DNA from: Planotetraspora mira
Lineage (GTDB): Bacteria > Actinomycetota > Actinomycetes > Streptosporangiales > Streptosporangiaceae
NCBI RefSeq assembly: GCF_016863275.1
Contig: NZ_BOOO01000036.1
Span: forward strand, 62,001 to 126,000
Direction of reading: 5' to 3'
Length of the DNA stretch: 64,000 bases
Each line of letters starts with the position of its first letter. Positions within the stretch are counted from its first letter, which is position 1. Below, piece by piece: positions 909-53,200 of this stretch. The notes under the pieces were generated by a model. The model ran no database searches and had not been told where the DNA came from. It saw only the letters and a list, made by a program, of their open reading frames with translations. The position numbers were made by a program, and so were the translations under genes.

Positions 909-1041
909 CGTCTCCGCGGGCCGTGCCGGCCGGACTTTCCGCCGGTGAGGGACGCCCGCTGACGAAGGAGTGTCAGGTTGGGGGGATCATAGGGTGGACC
1001 CGTCCCCGCAAGCCTGCCCGTCCTCAGAGGAGCCCGACATC

Positions 1042-2742
1042 GTGAACGTGACCGACGAAGCCATGAGCTTCGCGGATCTGGCACTGCGCCCCGAGCTCCT
1101 GCGAGCTCTGGGTGATCTCGGCTACGAGGAGCCGACTCCCATCCAGCGGGAGGCGATTCCGCCCCTCCTCGAAGGCCGCGACCTGCTCGGACAGGCCGCC
1201 ACCGGCACGGGCAAGACGGCGGCGTTCGCCCTGCCCGTGCTGCAGCGCATGTCCGAGAGGGAGTCGGAGTCCGGGCCGGTCGCGTTGATCCTTGTCCCCA
1301 CGCGGGAGCTCGCCGTACAGGTGTCCGAGGCGATGCACCGCTACGGCAAGGACATGGGGGCGCGGGTGCTCCCGATCTACGGCGGGCAGCCGATCGGCCG
1401 CCAGCTGCGGGCGCTGGAGCGCGGCGTCGACGTGGTGGTCGCGACCCCCGGACGTGCTCTCGACCACATCGGCAGGGGCACGCTGTCCATGAGCGGACTC
1501 CGGATGGTCGTGCTCGACGAGGCCGACGAGATGCTCGACATGGGCTTCGCCGACGACATCGAGACGATCCTCCAGGACACCCCGGAGGACCGCCAGACGG
1601 TGCTCTTCTCGGCGACCATGCCGCCCCGCATCGACGGGATGGCGCGCCGGCACCTCACCGACCCCGTCCGGATCAAGATCGAGCACGAGCAGGCCACCAC
1701 GGGGGAGAGCCCGCGGGTACGGCAGAGCGCCTACATCGTGTCCCGGTCGCACAAGCCCGCTGCTCTCGGGCGCGTGCTCGACGTCGAGTCGCCCGCGGCC
1801 GCGATCGTGTTCTGCCGTACGCGTGACGAGGTCGACTCGCTGACCGAGACGCTCAACGGGCGCGGCTATCGCGCCGAAGCCCTGCACGGGGGCATGGGCC
1901 AGGAGCAGCGCGACCGCGTGATGGGACGGCTGCGGACCGGAACCGCCGACCTGCTGGTCGCGACCGACGTGGCGGCCAGAGGTCTCGACATCGAGCAGCT
2001 CACCCACGTCATCAACTACGACGTCCCCTCGGCGCCCGAGTCGTACGTCCACCGGATCGGGCGGGTCGGCCGGGCGGGCAGGGAGGGCGTGGCGATCACG
2101 CTCGCCGAGCCGCGCGAGCACCGCATGCTCAAGACCATCGAGCGGGTCACCCGGAGCCGCATCGAGATCCAGAAAGTGCCGACGATCGCCGATCTGCTGG
2201 CGCGGCGACTCGAGCTGACCCGGGCCGCGATTCACGAGAGCATCCTCGAAGACGACGACCTGGACCGGTTCCGCGTCGTGGTCGAGACCCTCGCCGACGA
2301 GTTCGACGTGATGGAGGTGGCCCTCGCCGCGGTGAAACTCGCCCACGAGTCCACCGGCGCCGCGGCCGACGAGGAGGAGATCCCCGAGATCGCCTTGTCG
2401 CCCACCCGCGGTCGCCGTGACGTAGGCGGGCGTGACGGGGGCGGGCGTGACGGCGGGCCGCGCGATGACCGGCGTGGGCGCGGGGCGTCGAGAGGCGGAA
2501 TGGCCCGCCTGTTCGTCGGCGCCGGGCGCAGCGCGCGGATCCGGCCCCAGGACCTCGTCGGCGCCATCGCCGGCGAGACGAGGGTGAGCGGGCGCGACAT
2601 CGGCGCGATCGAGATCGCCGACAGGTTCTCCCTGGTCGAGGTCCCGGAGGCGGCCGTCGAGGAAGTCATCGACGCCTTGCGGAGGACCACCATCAAGGGC
2701 CGGAAGGTCACCATCCGCCGCGACCGCGACGCCTCCTACTGA
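1042..2742 (+). CDS. DEAD-box ATP-dependent RNA helicase, CsdA/DbpA type
   Basis: A 566-residue RNA helicase that unwinds structured RNA, probably in ribosome assembly or RNA decay. Motifs appear in order: Q motif (EPTPIQRE), Walker A ATGTGKT at about residue 53, PTRELA, TPGR, DEAD at about residue 159, SAT, then ARGLDIEQ and HRIGRVGRAG in the second RecA domain. A Gly/Arg/Asp-rich linker at about residues 455-490 leads to a C-terminal RNA-binding domain of the DbpA type (MARLFVGAGRSARI onward). The frame is open upstream to 970, but GTG 1042 has AGAGGAG nine bases before it and is the better start; ATG 1063 is possible. The gene ends 25 bases before the 53-bp repeat array. Confidence 0.93.
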   Translation: MNVTDEAMSFADLALRPELLRALGDLGYEEPTPIQREAIPPLLEGRDLLGQAATGTGKTAAFALPVLQRMSERESESGPVALILVPTRELAVQVSEAMHRYGKDMGARVLPIYGGQPIGRQLRALERGVDVVVATPGRALDHIGRGTLSMSGLRMVVLDEADEMLDMGFADDIETILQDTPEDRQTVLFSATMPPRIDGMARRHLTDPVRIKIEHEQATTGESPRVRQSAYIVSRSHKPAALGRVLDVESPAAAIVFCRTRDEVDSLTETLNGRGYRAEALHGGMGQEQRDRVMGRLRTGTADLLVATDVAARGLDIEQLTHVINYDVPSAPESYVHRIGRVGRAGREGVAITLAEPREHRMLKTIERVTRSRIEIQKVPTIADLLARRLELTRAAIHESILEDDDLDRFRVVVETLADEFDVMEVALAAVKLAHESTGAAADEEEIPEIALSPTRGRRDVGGRDGGGRDGGPRDDRRGRGASRGGMARLFVGAGRSARIRPQDLVGAIAGETRVSGRDIGAIEIADRFSLVEVPEAAVEEVIDALRRTTIKGRKVTIRRDRDASY

Positions 2743-2767
2743 CCCCCCTCGGGCCACTCCCTTGGGC

Positions 2768-3279
2768 GTGATCATGCACAGGTTCGGGATCTTGCCCCGC
2801 GACCTGCCCAAACCTCCCGCGTGATCATGCACACATTCGGGCGCATGCCGTCCGACCAGCGCAAACACCAGCCGTGATCATGCACGGGTTCGCCCACCTG
2901 CCGTTAGACGAGCGGAAACATCAGGCGTGATCATGCACGGGCTCGCGCATGTGCCGTAGGAGCAGCGGAAACGCGGTCCGTGATCATGCGCACATTCGTG
3001 AGCATGCCGTCCGGCCTGCGCGAACACCATGCGTGATCATGCACCTGGTCGGCGCGTGCATGATCACGGCGAAGAGGGCCGCAGGTCAGTACGGTCATGG
3101 CAGAACTTGTGCATGATCACGATCGAAAAGGCCGCGGGTCGGTGCTGCCTTAACCGAATGTCTGCATGATCACGGCTGGTGTTTTCGCTGGTCGGACGGC
3201 ATGCGCCCGAATGTGCGCATGATCACGCGGGGGGTTTGGGTAGGTCGGGGGGCAAGATCCCGAACCTGTGCATGATCAC
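2768..3279. repeat. 53-bp-period array of GTGATCATGCAC units in two converging orientations
   Basis: This fills the gap between the convergent helicase and DUF305 genes. The core GTGATCATGCAC (or GTGATCATGCGCAC) starts at 2768, 2821, 2874, 2927, 2980 and 3033 on the plus strand, exactly 53 bases apart. The reverse-complement core ends at 3067, 3120, 3173, 3226 and 3279, again exactly 53 apart. The outer two units on each side form an inverted repeat: 2768-2820 against 3227-3279 differ at 3 of 53 positions, and 2821-2873 against 3174-3226 at 2 of 53. Inner units share the core plus a loose TTCG, TGCCG and GCG-AAAC pattern. The period is not a multiple of three and no gene fits. I do not recognise the family. 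Confidence 0.95.
3033..3067. other. perfect 12-bp-stem hairpin at the centre of the array
   Basis: Where the two halves of the array meet, GTGATCATGCAC (3033-3044) faces GTGCATGATCAC (3056-3067) across an 11-base spacer. The result is a perfect 12-bp stem with an 11-base loop. There is no T-run on either side, so it is not a standard intrinsic terminator, although it could still slow transcription arriving from both convergent genes. Confidence 0.9.
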
Positions 3280-3905
3280 GGCTGGAGTTGGCGGAGGCGG
3301 TTTACTTCGGCTGTCTGGGTGACCGAGATGTCTTGGGCCAGTTCCTGCACCATCACGTGGGAGCCCTTCTCCATCTCGTCCGCGGCCATGGTGATGGCGC
3401 CCATGTGGTGGTCGATCATCAACTGCACGAACAGCCGGTCGAAGTCGGTGCCGATCGCCTTGCGCAAGGAGTCCATCTGCTCCGGCGTGGCCATGCCCGG
3501 CATGTCTTGATGTTGTAGCTGATGGTGGTCGGGAAGTCGCTGGCCCTGCTGCTCCAGCCAGCGCGTCATCGCGGAGATCTCCGGCCCCTGGGTGTCGTTG
3601 ATCCGGGCGGCCATGCGTTTGACGCCGTCCGACGCGGCCCGCGTGGGTGCCAGGTCGCTCATGTCGAGGGCCTGGCGGTGGTGGACGACCATGTCCTGCA
3701 TGAACAGGACGTCGGCCGCGTTCGCGGCGGGCGAGGGGACGGCCGTCACGACCTCGGACGGGCCGAGCGTCCTCGCTTCCTCCCCCGGCCGGCCTGGGGC
3801 GATGACCGGTGCGGTGGGTCTGGCCCCCGCGGTCTCGGGGGAGGCGGAGCACCCCGCGAGCATGGCCGTCCCGATGACGATGGCAGTGAGGAGTGCGGCG
3901 CGCAC
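3276..3905 (-). CDS. DUF305 family lipoprotein
   Basis: A 209-residue exported protein. The N-terminus is a lipoprotein signal with lipobox LAGC, cysteine at about residue 19, followed by a Pro/Ala-rich linker. The DUF305 domain shows the paired histidine motifs MVVHHRQALDMS and MIDHHMGAITMA, and a Met/His-rich stretch (DHHQLQHQDMPGM) between them. Family members are often found near metal, especially copper, genes; that function is inference here. GTG 3905 is preceded by AAGGGAGG. Its TGA stop (bases 3278-3276) lies inside the last unit of the 53-bp array, so the array defines the 3' end. It is divergent from the LVIVD protein gene and shares a 181-base promoter region with it. Confidence 0.85.
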   Translation of the reverse strand: MRAALLTAIVIGTAMLAGCSASPETAGARPTAPVIAPGRPGEEARTLGPSEVVTAVPSPAANAADVLFMQDMVVHHRQALDMSDLAPTRAASDGVKRMAARINDTQGPEISAMTRWLEQQGQRLPDHHQLQHQDMPGMATPEQMDSLRKAIGTDFDRLFVQLMIDHHMGAITMAADEMEKGSHVMVQELAQDISVTQTAEVNRLRQLQP

Positions 3906-25389: not shown

Positions 25390-26442
25390 ATGCTCGAGGA
25401 CATTCTCCGGGCGGCGGTCCCCGAGGTCGCGTCTGCCGCCGTCGCGGTGATCGCCCTGGACGGGCGGACCGCGGCCGAGGCGGCCGTGGGAGAGGCGGTG
25501 CGCTACGCGGACGCGTCGGAGACCCCGGCTCGGGAGCGCCCGCCGGTCGCGCTCGACTCGATCTTCGATCTCGCCTCGATCACCAAGCTGTTCACGACCG
25601 TCGTACTGCTGTCGCTCGCCGACGACGGCCGGGTGTCCATCGACGAACCGGTGGCGACATGGCTGCCGGATCACTACGGCGATCGGCCGGCGATCACACT
25701 CCGGCACCTGCTCACCCATACGGCGGGTCTGCCGCCGGGACGACGGGTCGAGGCGGAGCCTTCCGAGCGCCGGTGGGACATGATCTTGTCCACCCTGGCT
25801 TCCGGCCCGGCCGGGACACACGTCTACTCGGACGTCGGCATGATCACGGCGGGGCGGATCGCCGAGATCGCCGGGGGCGCGCCTCTCGACGTGCTGGTGC
25901 GGGAGCGGATCACGGGACCTCTCGGCCTCGCCGACACCGCCTACCGGCCGGACCCGGCATGGCTGCCGAGGATCGTGGCGACCGAGCACAAGCCTGAGCG
26001 TGCGGCGCGTCTGGGGGAGTCCGCGCCGGCGTGCGTCAGGGGAGAGGTGCACGACGAGACCGCCCACGTGCTCGGCGGCGTCGCCGGGCACGCGGGTCTG
26101 TTCTCCACGGCCGCGGACCTGGTCCGCTTCTGCGAGGCGCTGCGCGGCGGCGGCGACGGAGTCCTCTCCCGCGAGGCGGCGGCCGAGATGACGCGCGACC
26201 ACGGTGTCGCCGGCAGCGCCTTCCGCCAGGGGCTCGGCGTGCGGATCGGCGACCCGGCCGTCGTCGGCCCGCTCGTGGACGCGTGGGGGCACTCCGGCTT
26301 CACCGGGACGTCGCTCGTCGTGGATCCCGGCCGCCGGCTGACCGTCGTCCTGCTCACCAACAACGTCCATCCGCTGCGGGGACGGCCCGGCATCCGGGAT
26401 CTTCGCCACGCGGTCGCCGCCGAGGCTCTCGGCTTGGCCTGA
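25390..26442 (+). CDS. serine hydrolase of the beta-lactamase family, AmiE-like
   Basis: A 350-residue member of the class C beta-lactamase/penicillin-binding family. The SxxK motif is SITK near residue 59, the second motif is YSD near residue 146, and the third catalytic region is HSGFTGTS near residue 301. No signal peptide is seen. In Bacillus subtilis the MurNAc operon contains AmiE (YbbE), a beta-lactamase-fold N-acetylmuramoyl-L-alanine amidase; this gene holds the matching place after murQ, so it may strip peptide from muropeptides. That assignment rests on position and fold. ATG 25390 lies six bases after murQ. Confidence 0.7.
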   Translation: MLEDILRAAVPEVASAAVAVIALDGRTAAEAAVGEAVRYADASETPARERPPVALDSIFDLASITKLFTTVVLLSLADDGRVSIDEPVATWLPDHYGDRPAITLRHLLTHTAGLPPGRRVEAEPSERRWDMILSTLASGPAGTHVYSDVGMITAGRIAEIAGGAPLDVLVRERITGPLGLADTAYRPDPAWLPRIVATEHKPERAARLGESAPACVRGEVHDETAHVLGGVAGHAGLFSTAADLVRFCEALRGGGDGVLSREAAAEMTRDHGVAGSAFRQGLGVRIGDPAVVGPLVDAWGHSGFTGTSLVVDPGRRLTVVLLTNNVHPLRGRPGIRDLRHAVAAEALGLA

Positions 26443-50254: not shown

Positions 50255-53200
50255 TCAGCCGTACATTCTGTCGATCATCTTTTCGACCGTGCCGCCCGTC
50301 ATCCCGGCCGCGGCGGCCGATCCGAGCCCGATCCCCCAGCCGAACGGGCCGATCGGGCGTGATCCGAAGAACTGGCTGACGCCGGGAGTCGACACGATGA
50401 CCATCAGCGCGCCCATCGAGGCGACCGCGGCGATCGTGACCGTGCGGTCCCTGCCGCCCGCGCTGAGGGTCCGGAGCAACTGGGCCGAGACCAGGGCCAC
50501 CAGCGCGACCGTGTCCGCCCGGCTCCGGGTGCCCGTCATCCGGGCGGCGATCCACGCGACGCCCGCGGCGGAGGCGGTCGTCACGGCCCGCACGTTGATG
50601 TCCTTGGTCAGAGCCGAGCCGAGAGAGTTCTCCGGGCCCTCCGCCAGGACCTTCTCCGGACTGGCGGCGCTCGGCGGCCGTACGGCGACCGCAATGGCGG
50701 GCAACATGTCCGTGAGCAGGTTGACCAGGAGGAGTTGCCGGGCGTTCAGCGCGCTGCGACCGGTCAGCAGACTCGATCCGACGGTGAAGATGATCTCACC
50801 GATGTTCCCGCCGAGCAGGATGCCCAGGGCGTCGCGGACCGACCCCCACATGGCCCTGCCCTCGACGATCGCGTCGATGATCGTCTCGATGCGGTCGTCC
50901 GTCACGACGATGTCGGCGGCGGCGCGGGCCGCGGCCGTGGCGCGGGAGCCGAGGGCGACACCCACGTCGGCCAGACGGATCGCGGGCACGTCGTTGGCGC
51001 CGTCTCCGGTCACGGCCACGACGCTCCCTGACTGCCGGAGCGCGGACACGATGCGTGCCTTGTGCGCGGGTGTGGTCCGCGCGAACACCGACACCTCGGG
51101 AAGGATCTTCATCAGCTCTTCGTCGTCGAGCGCGTCGAGCGAGGGACCCGTCATGACCCGCAGGCCGTTGACGGCGTCGATCTCGGCCGCGATGGCCTCC
51201 GCCGTGCTCGGGTGATCACCGGTCAGCATGATCACCCGGACGCCCGCCTTCATCAGGCCCTGAACACTCCGCGCAGCCGTCGGGCGCACGGGATCGGCCA
51301 TTCCGAGGAACCCGAGGAAGCACAACCGGTCGACCCGCGACTCGTCCAGATCCGCGCGGCTGGACGCGGGCCGCTCCGCCACGGCGAGGACCCGGTAACC
51401 CTGCAGGGCGAGCCGTTCGACCTCGGTCTCCAGTTCCAGCCGGGCGTCCTCGTCCAGCTCGACCTCCTGGTCGTCGCGGAGCAGGGTCGCGCAGCGGGTC
51501 AGCACCACCTCGGGGGCGCCCTTGACGCTGAGCAGGTGGGCGGACTCGGCCAGCCCCAGCACGGCGTGGAAACCCCTCGCCGGCTCGAACGGCATCTCGT
51601 CGACCCGTTCCCACTTCTCCAGCCCCTCGGCGGCCGCGACCCCGAGGCCCTGCGCCCCCTCGACCACGGCCCGGTCGGTGGGGTGCGCGAGCACCCGGCC
51701 GCCCTCGAACTTCGGCCCGGCGCGCAGAGCAGCGGCGACGACGCGGCGCAGCCGCGGCGTCATCGAGCCCGCGCCGCCCTCGATCCGGCCGTCGGACACA
51801 CGGCGCAGGCTGATGTGCCCCTCGGTCAGAGTGCCCGTCTTGTCGAAGCACAGCACGTCGACCCGTCCGAGCGCCTCGATCGTGGAGGGGTTGCGGACGA
51901 GGGTGTTGCGTGTGGACAGACGCTTCGCCGCCGCCAGCTCCGCGAGCGTGGCGACGAACGGAAGCCCTTCCGGGACCGCCGCGACGGCGAGGCTCACGGC
52001 CGGTGCGAGCGCCTGCGACAACGACGCGCCGCGGAGCAGCTCACCGGCCATCAGGACGACACCGGAGCCGATCGCCATCGGCACGATCTTGCTGCTCAGC
52101 GTGCGGAGCCGCAGCTCCACACCACTCGGAGGAGGCCCGCCGTGGACGAGCCGGGCCGTCCTGCCCGTCTCGGTCTCCTCGCCCGTCGCCACGATCACCG
52201 CGAGGCCTGAGCCCGCCGCCACCGAGCTGCCCTCGTACACCATGGAGCTGCGGTCGGCGACCGCGGGAGCGGCGGTCGGAGCGACCGCCTTGCTCACGAG
52301 CTGCGACTCCCCGGTGAGGGTGGACTCGTCGATCTCCAGGCCCACGGCCTTGAGCAGCCGGGCGTCCGCGGGCACGGCGTCGCCTGCGCGAAGCTCGATC
52401 ACGTCGCCGGGGACCAGGTCCGCGGCGTTGCCCGTCTGGCCGCCGTCTCCCGCGCCGTCCGGGCGGCGCAGCCGTACCCGCACGGCGGTGGCCTCGGACA
52501 GCGCGCTCAGCACCCGGCCGGCGTCGCGTCGCTGCGCGCCGCCGAGCACGGCGTTGACGACCATCACGCTGACGATCAGCACCGCGTCGAGGACCGACCC
52601 GATGGCCGCGGACACTCCCGCACCCGCCGCGAGCACTGGGGTCAGCGGATTGGCCAGCTCCTCCACCGACGCCCTGGCCAGCGACTCGGGGCCCGCCGAG
52701 GCGGACCGCACCGACGTCCTTCTGCGCAGTGCGGCCTCCGCCTCGGTCAGCCCGCCGGGCGAGCTGTTCAGCCGGGCCAGCACGTCCTGCGCCGACATCG
52801 CGTGCCAGGGCGTCCGGTCGGCCGTGATCGGCGTCTCGCCGTTCCCCATGCGCCGTCCCGCCCATGTGCCCATGACGAGGGACGCGAGCGACGTCCCGTC
52901 GGCCACGAGCTGCGCTCGCCGTACGGCGGTGCGCTCCATCCCCAAGATCCCCAGCGCGCCTCCGACGACCGCGGAGGCCGCGGCGAGCCGTACGACCAAC
53001 TCGCTGGCACGCCGGGCGGCGGGCAGACAGGCGAGCATCAGATGCGCGCCGCCGAGGTCACCGAGGACGTCCGCCTCCCAGGGCACCTGACGGGACCGGC
53101 GGATCAGGCCGACGCCCAGGTCGGCCTGGCGCAGGGCGCGGTGCGACCCCGTGGCGACCACGGCCACGCCGCGCCCTTCGGCCTGCAGGTCCATGATCGC

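Follow-up and report, generated by a model that had tools for sequence, protein, structure and literature searches.

A family of intergenic repeat arrays in Planotetraspora and a candidate nuclease encoded between its own repeats

Results

A mirrored repeat array at the end of two convergent genes

The window, a 64,000-nucleotide stretch of the Planotetraspora mira genome, encodes a DEAD-box RNA helicase (970..2742, plus strand; a listed ORF whose true start is uncertain) and a DUF305 protein (3276..3905, minus strand) that converge on a repeat array. As the sequence-only reading had described, the array consists of eleven exact GTGATCATGC cores, six forward and then five reversed, with 53-base steps within each half. 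The forward arm (2768..3042, plus strand, from the core search) has exact cores starting at 2768, 2821, 2874, 2927, 2980 and 3033. The reverse arm (3058..3279, minus strand) has them at 3058, 3111, 3164, 3217 and 3270, and the innermost opposed cores start 25 bases apart. The helicase gene stops 25 bases short of the first core, and a leader read from the sequence (2743..2766, plus strand) spans the distance from its stop to the first forward head. On the opposite side, the DUF305 gene takes its TGA stop from the outermost reversed core. The inverted repeat that had been called near-perfect over 106 bases is real and slightly longer than claimed, pairing a left arm at 2767..2884 with a right arm at 3163..3280 (118 nt, 96% complementary).

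With at most one mismatch, the window holds 27 core matches against a mean of 4.2 and a maximum of 11 in 100 dinucleotide shuffles. Two more single exact cores lie outside any array, at 25838-25847 and 51226-51235 on the minus strand.

Spread and unit structure of the repeat family

The window array is one site of a genome-wide repeat family. The P. mira genome (G000; 9.03 Mb in 100 contigs) carries 475 + 497 = 972 exact cores, whereas a reversed control string gives 0 + 0, a count that may run low because this string contains CTAG, which is rare in bacteria. Core pairs at 53 bases are far from chance (299 + 323 against 0 + 0 for the control). A search of 100 relatives for the core with its 53-base spacing, which the sequence-only reading had proposed, found the pattern in all five Planotetraspora genomes, including P. 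kaengkrachanensis (G003) and P. silvatica (G004), and in none of the 95 others. A scan of named genomes likewise returned 57 stretches, all from Planotetraspora. Repeat matches with up to three mismatches occur in 20 of 341 genomes of the family, several of which have one or two chance-like matches. The Planotetraspora unit has the consensus CGTGATCATGCACAGGTTCGG, a variable stretch, GACCTGCGC and AC (190 units followed by a next unit at 53), and the following block is missing after the last core of each run.

A 12-base head, CGTGATC(A/T)TGCA, is common to a patchy set of other Actinomycetes, with tails that are lineage-specific. It exceeds 20 copies in seven of 256 genomes of the class, other families among them, and the remaining genomes have a handful at most. 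Outside the Streptosporangiaceae the counts are 289 (G093), 287 (G428), 101 (G570), 35 (G091) and 29 (G485). Beyond the class, none of 261 genomes has paired heads (296 genomes of the phylum searched). The label "genus-specific" thus holds for the exact 53-bp pair among the 100 relatives and is false for the head family. In other lineages the head is kept while tail and spacing change: one tail is (A/G)TCCCGCCACCC, mostly at 37, another is CRTCCTGGG at about 30-55, and further tails are CGCCAGCGCA and CGTTCGCCCC. The Streptosporangiaceae tail lengthens the unit to 53 bases.

Heads are preceded by a C-rich leader. In the 20 nt upstream the C/G ratio is 2.64 for arms in the sense of the preceding gene and 3.45 for antisense arms, against 1.14 at control 3' ends. 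It ranges from 2.4 to 6.7 in four other lineages and is just 1.26 in G137. Helical phasing was also considered. The 53-base step equals five turns of 10.6 bp, yet the information profile has no special 10.6 peak, and we make no claim of phasing since other lineages step differently (22 in G091, 30-55 elsewhere). The 22-bp step, the shortest regular one found, spaces five heads in the left flank of the G091 nuclease gene described below (L255). G093 has a second repeat, CACAGAATGCTGGGTT ... AGCATTCTGTG, which forms an inverted pair close to facing arms or between them at several loci (L176 8513-8795, L177 13611-14497 and L178 17462-17631). In genus g50 (G113 and G053; L269), many pairs among those listed are divergent, a minus head preceding a plus head, with 28 bp as a frequent spacing, in contrast to the inward rule of Planotetraspora.

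No viral contig has a head pair at 30-60 bp, and comparison of the window array with plasmids and phages gave nothing better than E 0.5-0.6. Searches of the open-access literature with core 10-mers and by topic found no description of the GTGATCATGC repeat among the papers listed.

Placement of arrays relative to genes

Once arrays within 900 bp of the end of their source sequence, or with no called gene beside them, had been set aside, 115 Planotetraspora arrays of at least two cores were kept for the placement count, and taking one per flank-similarity group gave 56 independent loci. Genes were called with a purpose-made caller that may misplace starts and some strands. The loci comprise 34 converging and 22 one-way arrays, with no diverging or mixed arrangement, although such arrangements are present in other lineages (G428, G570, G113 and G053). 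All 56 loci are extragenic, whereas four of 17 single stray cores fall inside called genes. The siting exactly between two convergent genes, true of the window array, is over-represented in the family and not required: 26 loci lie between convergent, 25 between codirectional and five between divergent genes, compared with 198 convergent pairs among 1049 adjacent pairs in G000.

Of 90 arms, 64 follow a gene on their own strand, most of them within 50 bp of its stop codon, and in 17 of these 64 the TGA of the core is itself the stop. The other 26 arms are antisense, and their distances scatter. Among one-way arrays, 16 of 22 are sense (p 0.05). G000 alone has a weak bias (29 of 45 arms sense, p 0.07), and of its eight one-way arrays flanked by codirectional genes five are sense. 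An earlier rule, "always sense, behind genes", had come from a count of 55/73 that contained orthologous copies and was given up on the de-duplicated figures. At one locus (G000:C1, 278950) the gene stops at a core TGA in G000 and about 20 nt before the core in G002, so arrays seem able to extend protein C-termini. A DUF2786/DUF7168 protein adjoins arrays in P. silvatica (L058, 2474-3679).

Local copying and turnover of units

Across 13 array loci on a single contig, the orthologous arrays of G000, G003 and G004 share their positions wherever a comparison was possible, with unit numbers that differ. An assembly artefact behind the mirrored array is unlikely, because orthologous arrays of differing unit number hold the same sites in other species; these are other loci of the genome, the window's own locus lying outside the set. 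G002, another Planotetraspora genome, has no core at three and one core at three of 12 comparable sites. By eye, its empty or nearly empty sites show no target-site duplication of the kind expected for a miniature transposable element with terminal inverted repeats. One of them keeps a unit remnant, and loss is thus as likely there as gain.

The suggestion of arm-to-arm correction or palindromic amplification is supported by the filler between cores. In G000, 5.6% of same-arm pairs and 7.8% of opposite-arm pairs are at least 80% alike, against 0.008% expected from a position-specific simulation. Between loci there is no such pair among 3619 in G000, 1175 in G003 and 1525 in G004. The outermost units have their closest counterparts on the opposite arm (mean 0.67, 20 pairs). 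In G093 the same spacer recurs at distant places, and dispersal therefore seems to happen in some lineages.

Heads change less than the filler. Between G000 and G004, differences number 11/444 in heads, 75/575 in filler and 2999/47318 at fourfold sites; between G000 and G003 they number 7/174, 66/217 and 6053/32067. These comparisons cover loci with at least two cores in both species and a length difference of at most 40 (7, 3 and 1 loci). Head conservation could reflect use by the host. In G002, next-phase cores are exact in 7 of 11 cases versus 130 of 144 in G000; other comparisons give 48/51 and 54/58.

A nuclease-like gene between facing heads

In G485 an array is split by a gene of 304 codons plus stop. 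Its protein was searched for in 23 genomes, comprising 16 array genomes and seven array-less ones, and 12 of the former carry a full-length close homologue. Among the remaining array genomes, G264 has a partial match with a broken gene frame, G137 and G037 have a paralogue alone, and G002 has none. The seven array-less genomes have no homologue (G139, G141, G142, G152 and G036) or weak matches (G388 and G019). The P. mira copy is on contig C30, between facing heads and outside the window.

Flanks were read at 15 loci plus G485. Where a full-length close homologue is present and its flanks were read, inward heads lie on both sides of the gene in 11 of 12 genomes (G000, G001, G003, G004, G140, G144, G149, G093, G428, G570 and G485). 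In G140 each side has a single head, in G144 the sides have two and one, and in the remaining nine genomes either side has two or more. In G091, the twelfth genome, five heads lie on one side, and about 114 bp were read on the other. Heads also surround the broken copy in G264, while the paralogues in G137, G037 and G019 (L262, L263 and L265) have no flanking heads.

None of 1043 G000 genes (1.24 Mb read) is flanked on each side by two or more inward-facing heads at a distance of up to 320 bp. Inward arrays do enclose five other single genes (UbiA, two GH20, FdhD and a thiolase), all encoding ordinary enzymes, in 8-kb loci of P. silvatica and P. kaengkrachanensis that were selected because they contain arrays. 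That other flanked genes are ordinary had suggested that the nuclease was a chance neighbour as well, an idea overturned by the homologue search across array genomes: the nuclease is set apart by recurring between heads in unrelated lineages. More than 20 heads are found in 15 of 15 gene carriers versus six of 32 other genomes; the Fisher value for this association is not a clean probability, since head count partly guided the choice of genomes and these are related to one another.

The first half of the G000 protein matches AbiEi models (PADLOC AbiEi, 8e-15). PF13338 is above cut-off in G428, and PF09407 is at or above cut-off in G000, G093, G428, G091 and G140; the G570 and G485 proteins have no Pfam AbiEi match. 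The second half matches MTES_1575, a restriction-nuclease-like family, at 40.9 bits in G000 (cut-off 38.2). This match is above cut-off also in G140 and below it in G093, G428, G570 and G091 (four of six scored) and in G485. DUF559 matches some head-flanked proteins below cut-off, and a PDB profile match to Vsr is weak (E 0.14). D224, E235, D237, H242 and D251, among other positions, are invariant in all 12 proteins of an alignment whose start codons were chosen by the analyst. These D/E/D/H residues may be catalytic. From its profile matches, the partner is a candidate protein with an AbiEi-like winged-helix half and an MTES_1575/Vsr-like nuclease half.

Distant homologues and exceptions

A search with the G000 protein at 1e-10, in which up to six candidates were scored for each genome, found homologues in 215 of the 341 genomes of the family. 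Ranked just behind the known carriers are homologues in G053, G028 and G113, from two further genera and 49-51% identical, and these led to overlooked heads in genomes that had been inconspicuous in the earlier pattern scan, with one match in G113 and none in G053 and G028. Head counts are 224 in G053, 82 in G028 and 170 in G113. The gene has heads on both sides in G053, some of them diverging, and a dyad on one side in G028.

More distant homologues from other genera, 39-53% identical, occur in genomes with 0-8 heads (12 counted). We looked for a repeat of their own beside such homologues in two flanks, G288 and G223, and saw neither that nor heads. The gene family is thus not sufficient for heads, given the low counts in the 12 genomes and the two flanks without them. 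In genus g95, three carriers have 65, 74 and 209 heads, whereas 11 of 12 non-carriers have 2-8; the other, G146, has 46. In a tree of 19 proteins the array-associated proteins form two groups (support 92/94 and 98/98), with two array-less homologues inside the second group and the paralogues apart.

Some genomes are rich in heads with no intact or close gene found. G137 has 698 heads in a 98%-complete assembly, no close homologue and a paralogue without flanking heads; G264 has 252, G037 92, G146 46 and G114 (86% complete) 22. Such genomes may represent recent losses, assembly gaps or a sign of another factor. Recent loss is suggested by the less exact units of G002.

Discussion

We consider it probable that the heads and the nuclease form a REP-like two-part system, in which extragenic repeats are acted on by an unrelated chromosomal nuclease. 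The argument that the protein acts on the heads comes from the layout, the co-occurrence and the less exact arrays after gene loss. The fuller version, which we favour by a narrow balance, is a second, independently evolved REP-like system in Actinomycetes, whose winged-helix, Vsr-type nuclease was domesticated within its own target array and multiplies and maintains hundreds of phased intergenic arrays.

One part of this system would be the intergenic repeats, usually a C-rich leader followed by the invariant head and a lineage-specific tail, stacked in Planotetraspora in inward-facing or one-way arrays. The other would be the single chromosomal gene between facing heads. The winged-helix half may bind the head, with CGTGATCATGCA plus the tail of its own lineage as the proposed target, and the nuclease half may nick or cut there. 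Repair induced by such nicks or breaks may be the engine, as the nuclease-like half and the local copying between arms suggest. It would copy units from an adjacent or opposite arm, letting arrays grow and keeping their outer arms alike. New sites may be seeded occasionally. Arrays would survive mainly between genes, often behind stops, because elsewhere genes would break. Those behind stop codons may also block readthrough, and a bidirectional transcription block, one of the functions first proposed for the window array, is possible. A benefit to the host, such as transcription insulation, may be added to this.

Insulation could also be the whole purpose. The arrays would then be polar transcription insulators that serve the host, with a protein roadblock on heads at gene 3' ends and Rho loading on the C-rich leader; the nuclease fold would be used for binding alone, and host need would keep gene and arrays together. 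The arms behind same-strand stops, the 17 core TGAs that serve as stops, the total lack of diverging loci, the C-rich leader of sense arms and the constraint on the head all fit such a role. We nevertheless regard it as unlikely. The 26 antisense arms carry the same leader, which thus belongs to the element, the sense bias within G000 is weak both overall and for codirectional one-way arrays, the nuclease-type residues are invariant, and G002 lives without the gene. A decoy or addiction system is less probable still. In it, the putative nuclease would be toxic and hundreds of arrays would titrate it as an antidote, in the manner of a toxin-antitoxin pair. An AbiEi-type domain would suit this, as would a number of sites that seems far beyond the need of a single regulator, and the units of gene-less G002 are less exact; against it, homologues occur in genomes nearly without heads and G137 keeps its 698 heads with no gene found.

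The arrays might instead act in RNA, serving termination or processing as 3' UTR hairpins or single-stranded sites. Folded as RNA, the complete window array has a much lower energy than its shuffles (z -21.9), and two of three folded G570 segments are hairpins of about 20 pairs. The low energy of the window array is due to its two facing arms: single arms reach a z of about -2.2, and six one-way arrays range from +0.3 to -3.9. A stem tested in 277 non-redundant units has no base-pair covariation and mainly neighbour dependencies, which led us to reject the stem hypothesis, and Rfam gives one match at 34.7 bits where the family cut-off is 100. An RNA-level role is accordingly very improbable. 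To classical REP/RAYT repeats, paired with an HUH tyrosine transposase, we give almost no credence, although the family has repeats between genes and near 3' ends, inverted pairs and a nuclease gene beside its repeat. A profile search found no Y1_Tnp (PF01797) in 12 of 18 array genomes (G000, G002, G003, G004, G137, G144, G149, G428, G091, G093, G570 and G485). It has matches in the other six, which could be RAYTs or other Y1 transposases, and in four of eight array-less genomes. RAYT was rejected as the partner since PF01797 is missing from most array genomes, and the unit has no conserved stem. The initial idea of a new REP/BIME-like element thus pointed in the right direction, with a partner other than a RAYT transposase.

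If the two-part system is real, it would be a second pairing of repeats with a nuclease, built on an unrelated enzyme and a different form of repeat, and this way of life would have arisen more than once. A group of unassigned AbiEi/DUF559-like proteins would gain a substrate. Whether the repeats serve the host or themselves would become testable, since Planotetraspora includes carriers and a gene loser, and g95 includes carriers and repeat-free species.

Several known systems share features with this one. MIRU 53-bp units are tandem and intergenic, DNA uptake sequences are 10-mers or thereabouts in many copies, and the eukaryotic TTF-I/Reb1 terminator arrays are polar and lie behind genes. 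Their likeness to the repeat family is drawn from general descriptions, and we know of no such nuclease gene inside any of them. AbiEi antitoxins and regulators of the AbiE system resemble the N-terminal half of the partner by its model matches and differ in lacking its C-terminal nuclease-like domain and the position of its gene between arrays. By weak matches, the other half belongs to the same nuclease superfamily as solitary DUF559/Vsr-like nucleases such as Caulobacter VsrA, for which a DUF559 domain and a link to a cytosine methyltransferase and mismatch repair are reported (PMC12907096). The VsrA passages of that source name no repeat family and no AbiEi half.

REP/RAYT is the textbook case in which repeats scattered outside genes are linked to a single nuclease gene. 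The parts of its description that bear on our case give short extragenic repeats, often in inverted pairs, and a single-copy nuclease gene beside its own cluster (PMC3116915). The present family resembles it in its many extragenic copies, its inverted pairs, the nuclease gene beside its own repeat cluster and signs of lateral transfer between distant taxa, a trait also given in those parts (PMC3116915). It differs in its candidate nuclease, which is AbiEi plus MTES_1575/Vsr-like and not an HUH Y1 transposase, and in its repeat, a head and tail stacked at 53 bp in Planotetraspora. A hairpin or imperfect palindrome is not a conserved part of this unit, given the missing covariation at the candidate stem and the weak folding of single arms, although the G570 dyads do fold. 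Copying in Planotetraspora also looks local. We count the system as new in kind because these two defining parts of REP/RAYT fail, while it would still work like REP/RAYT.
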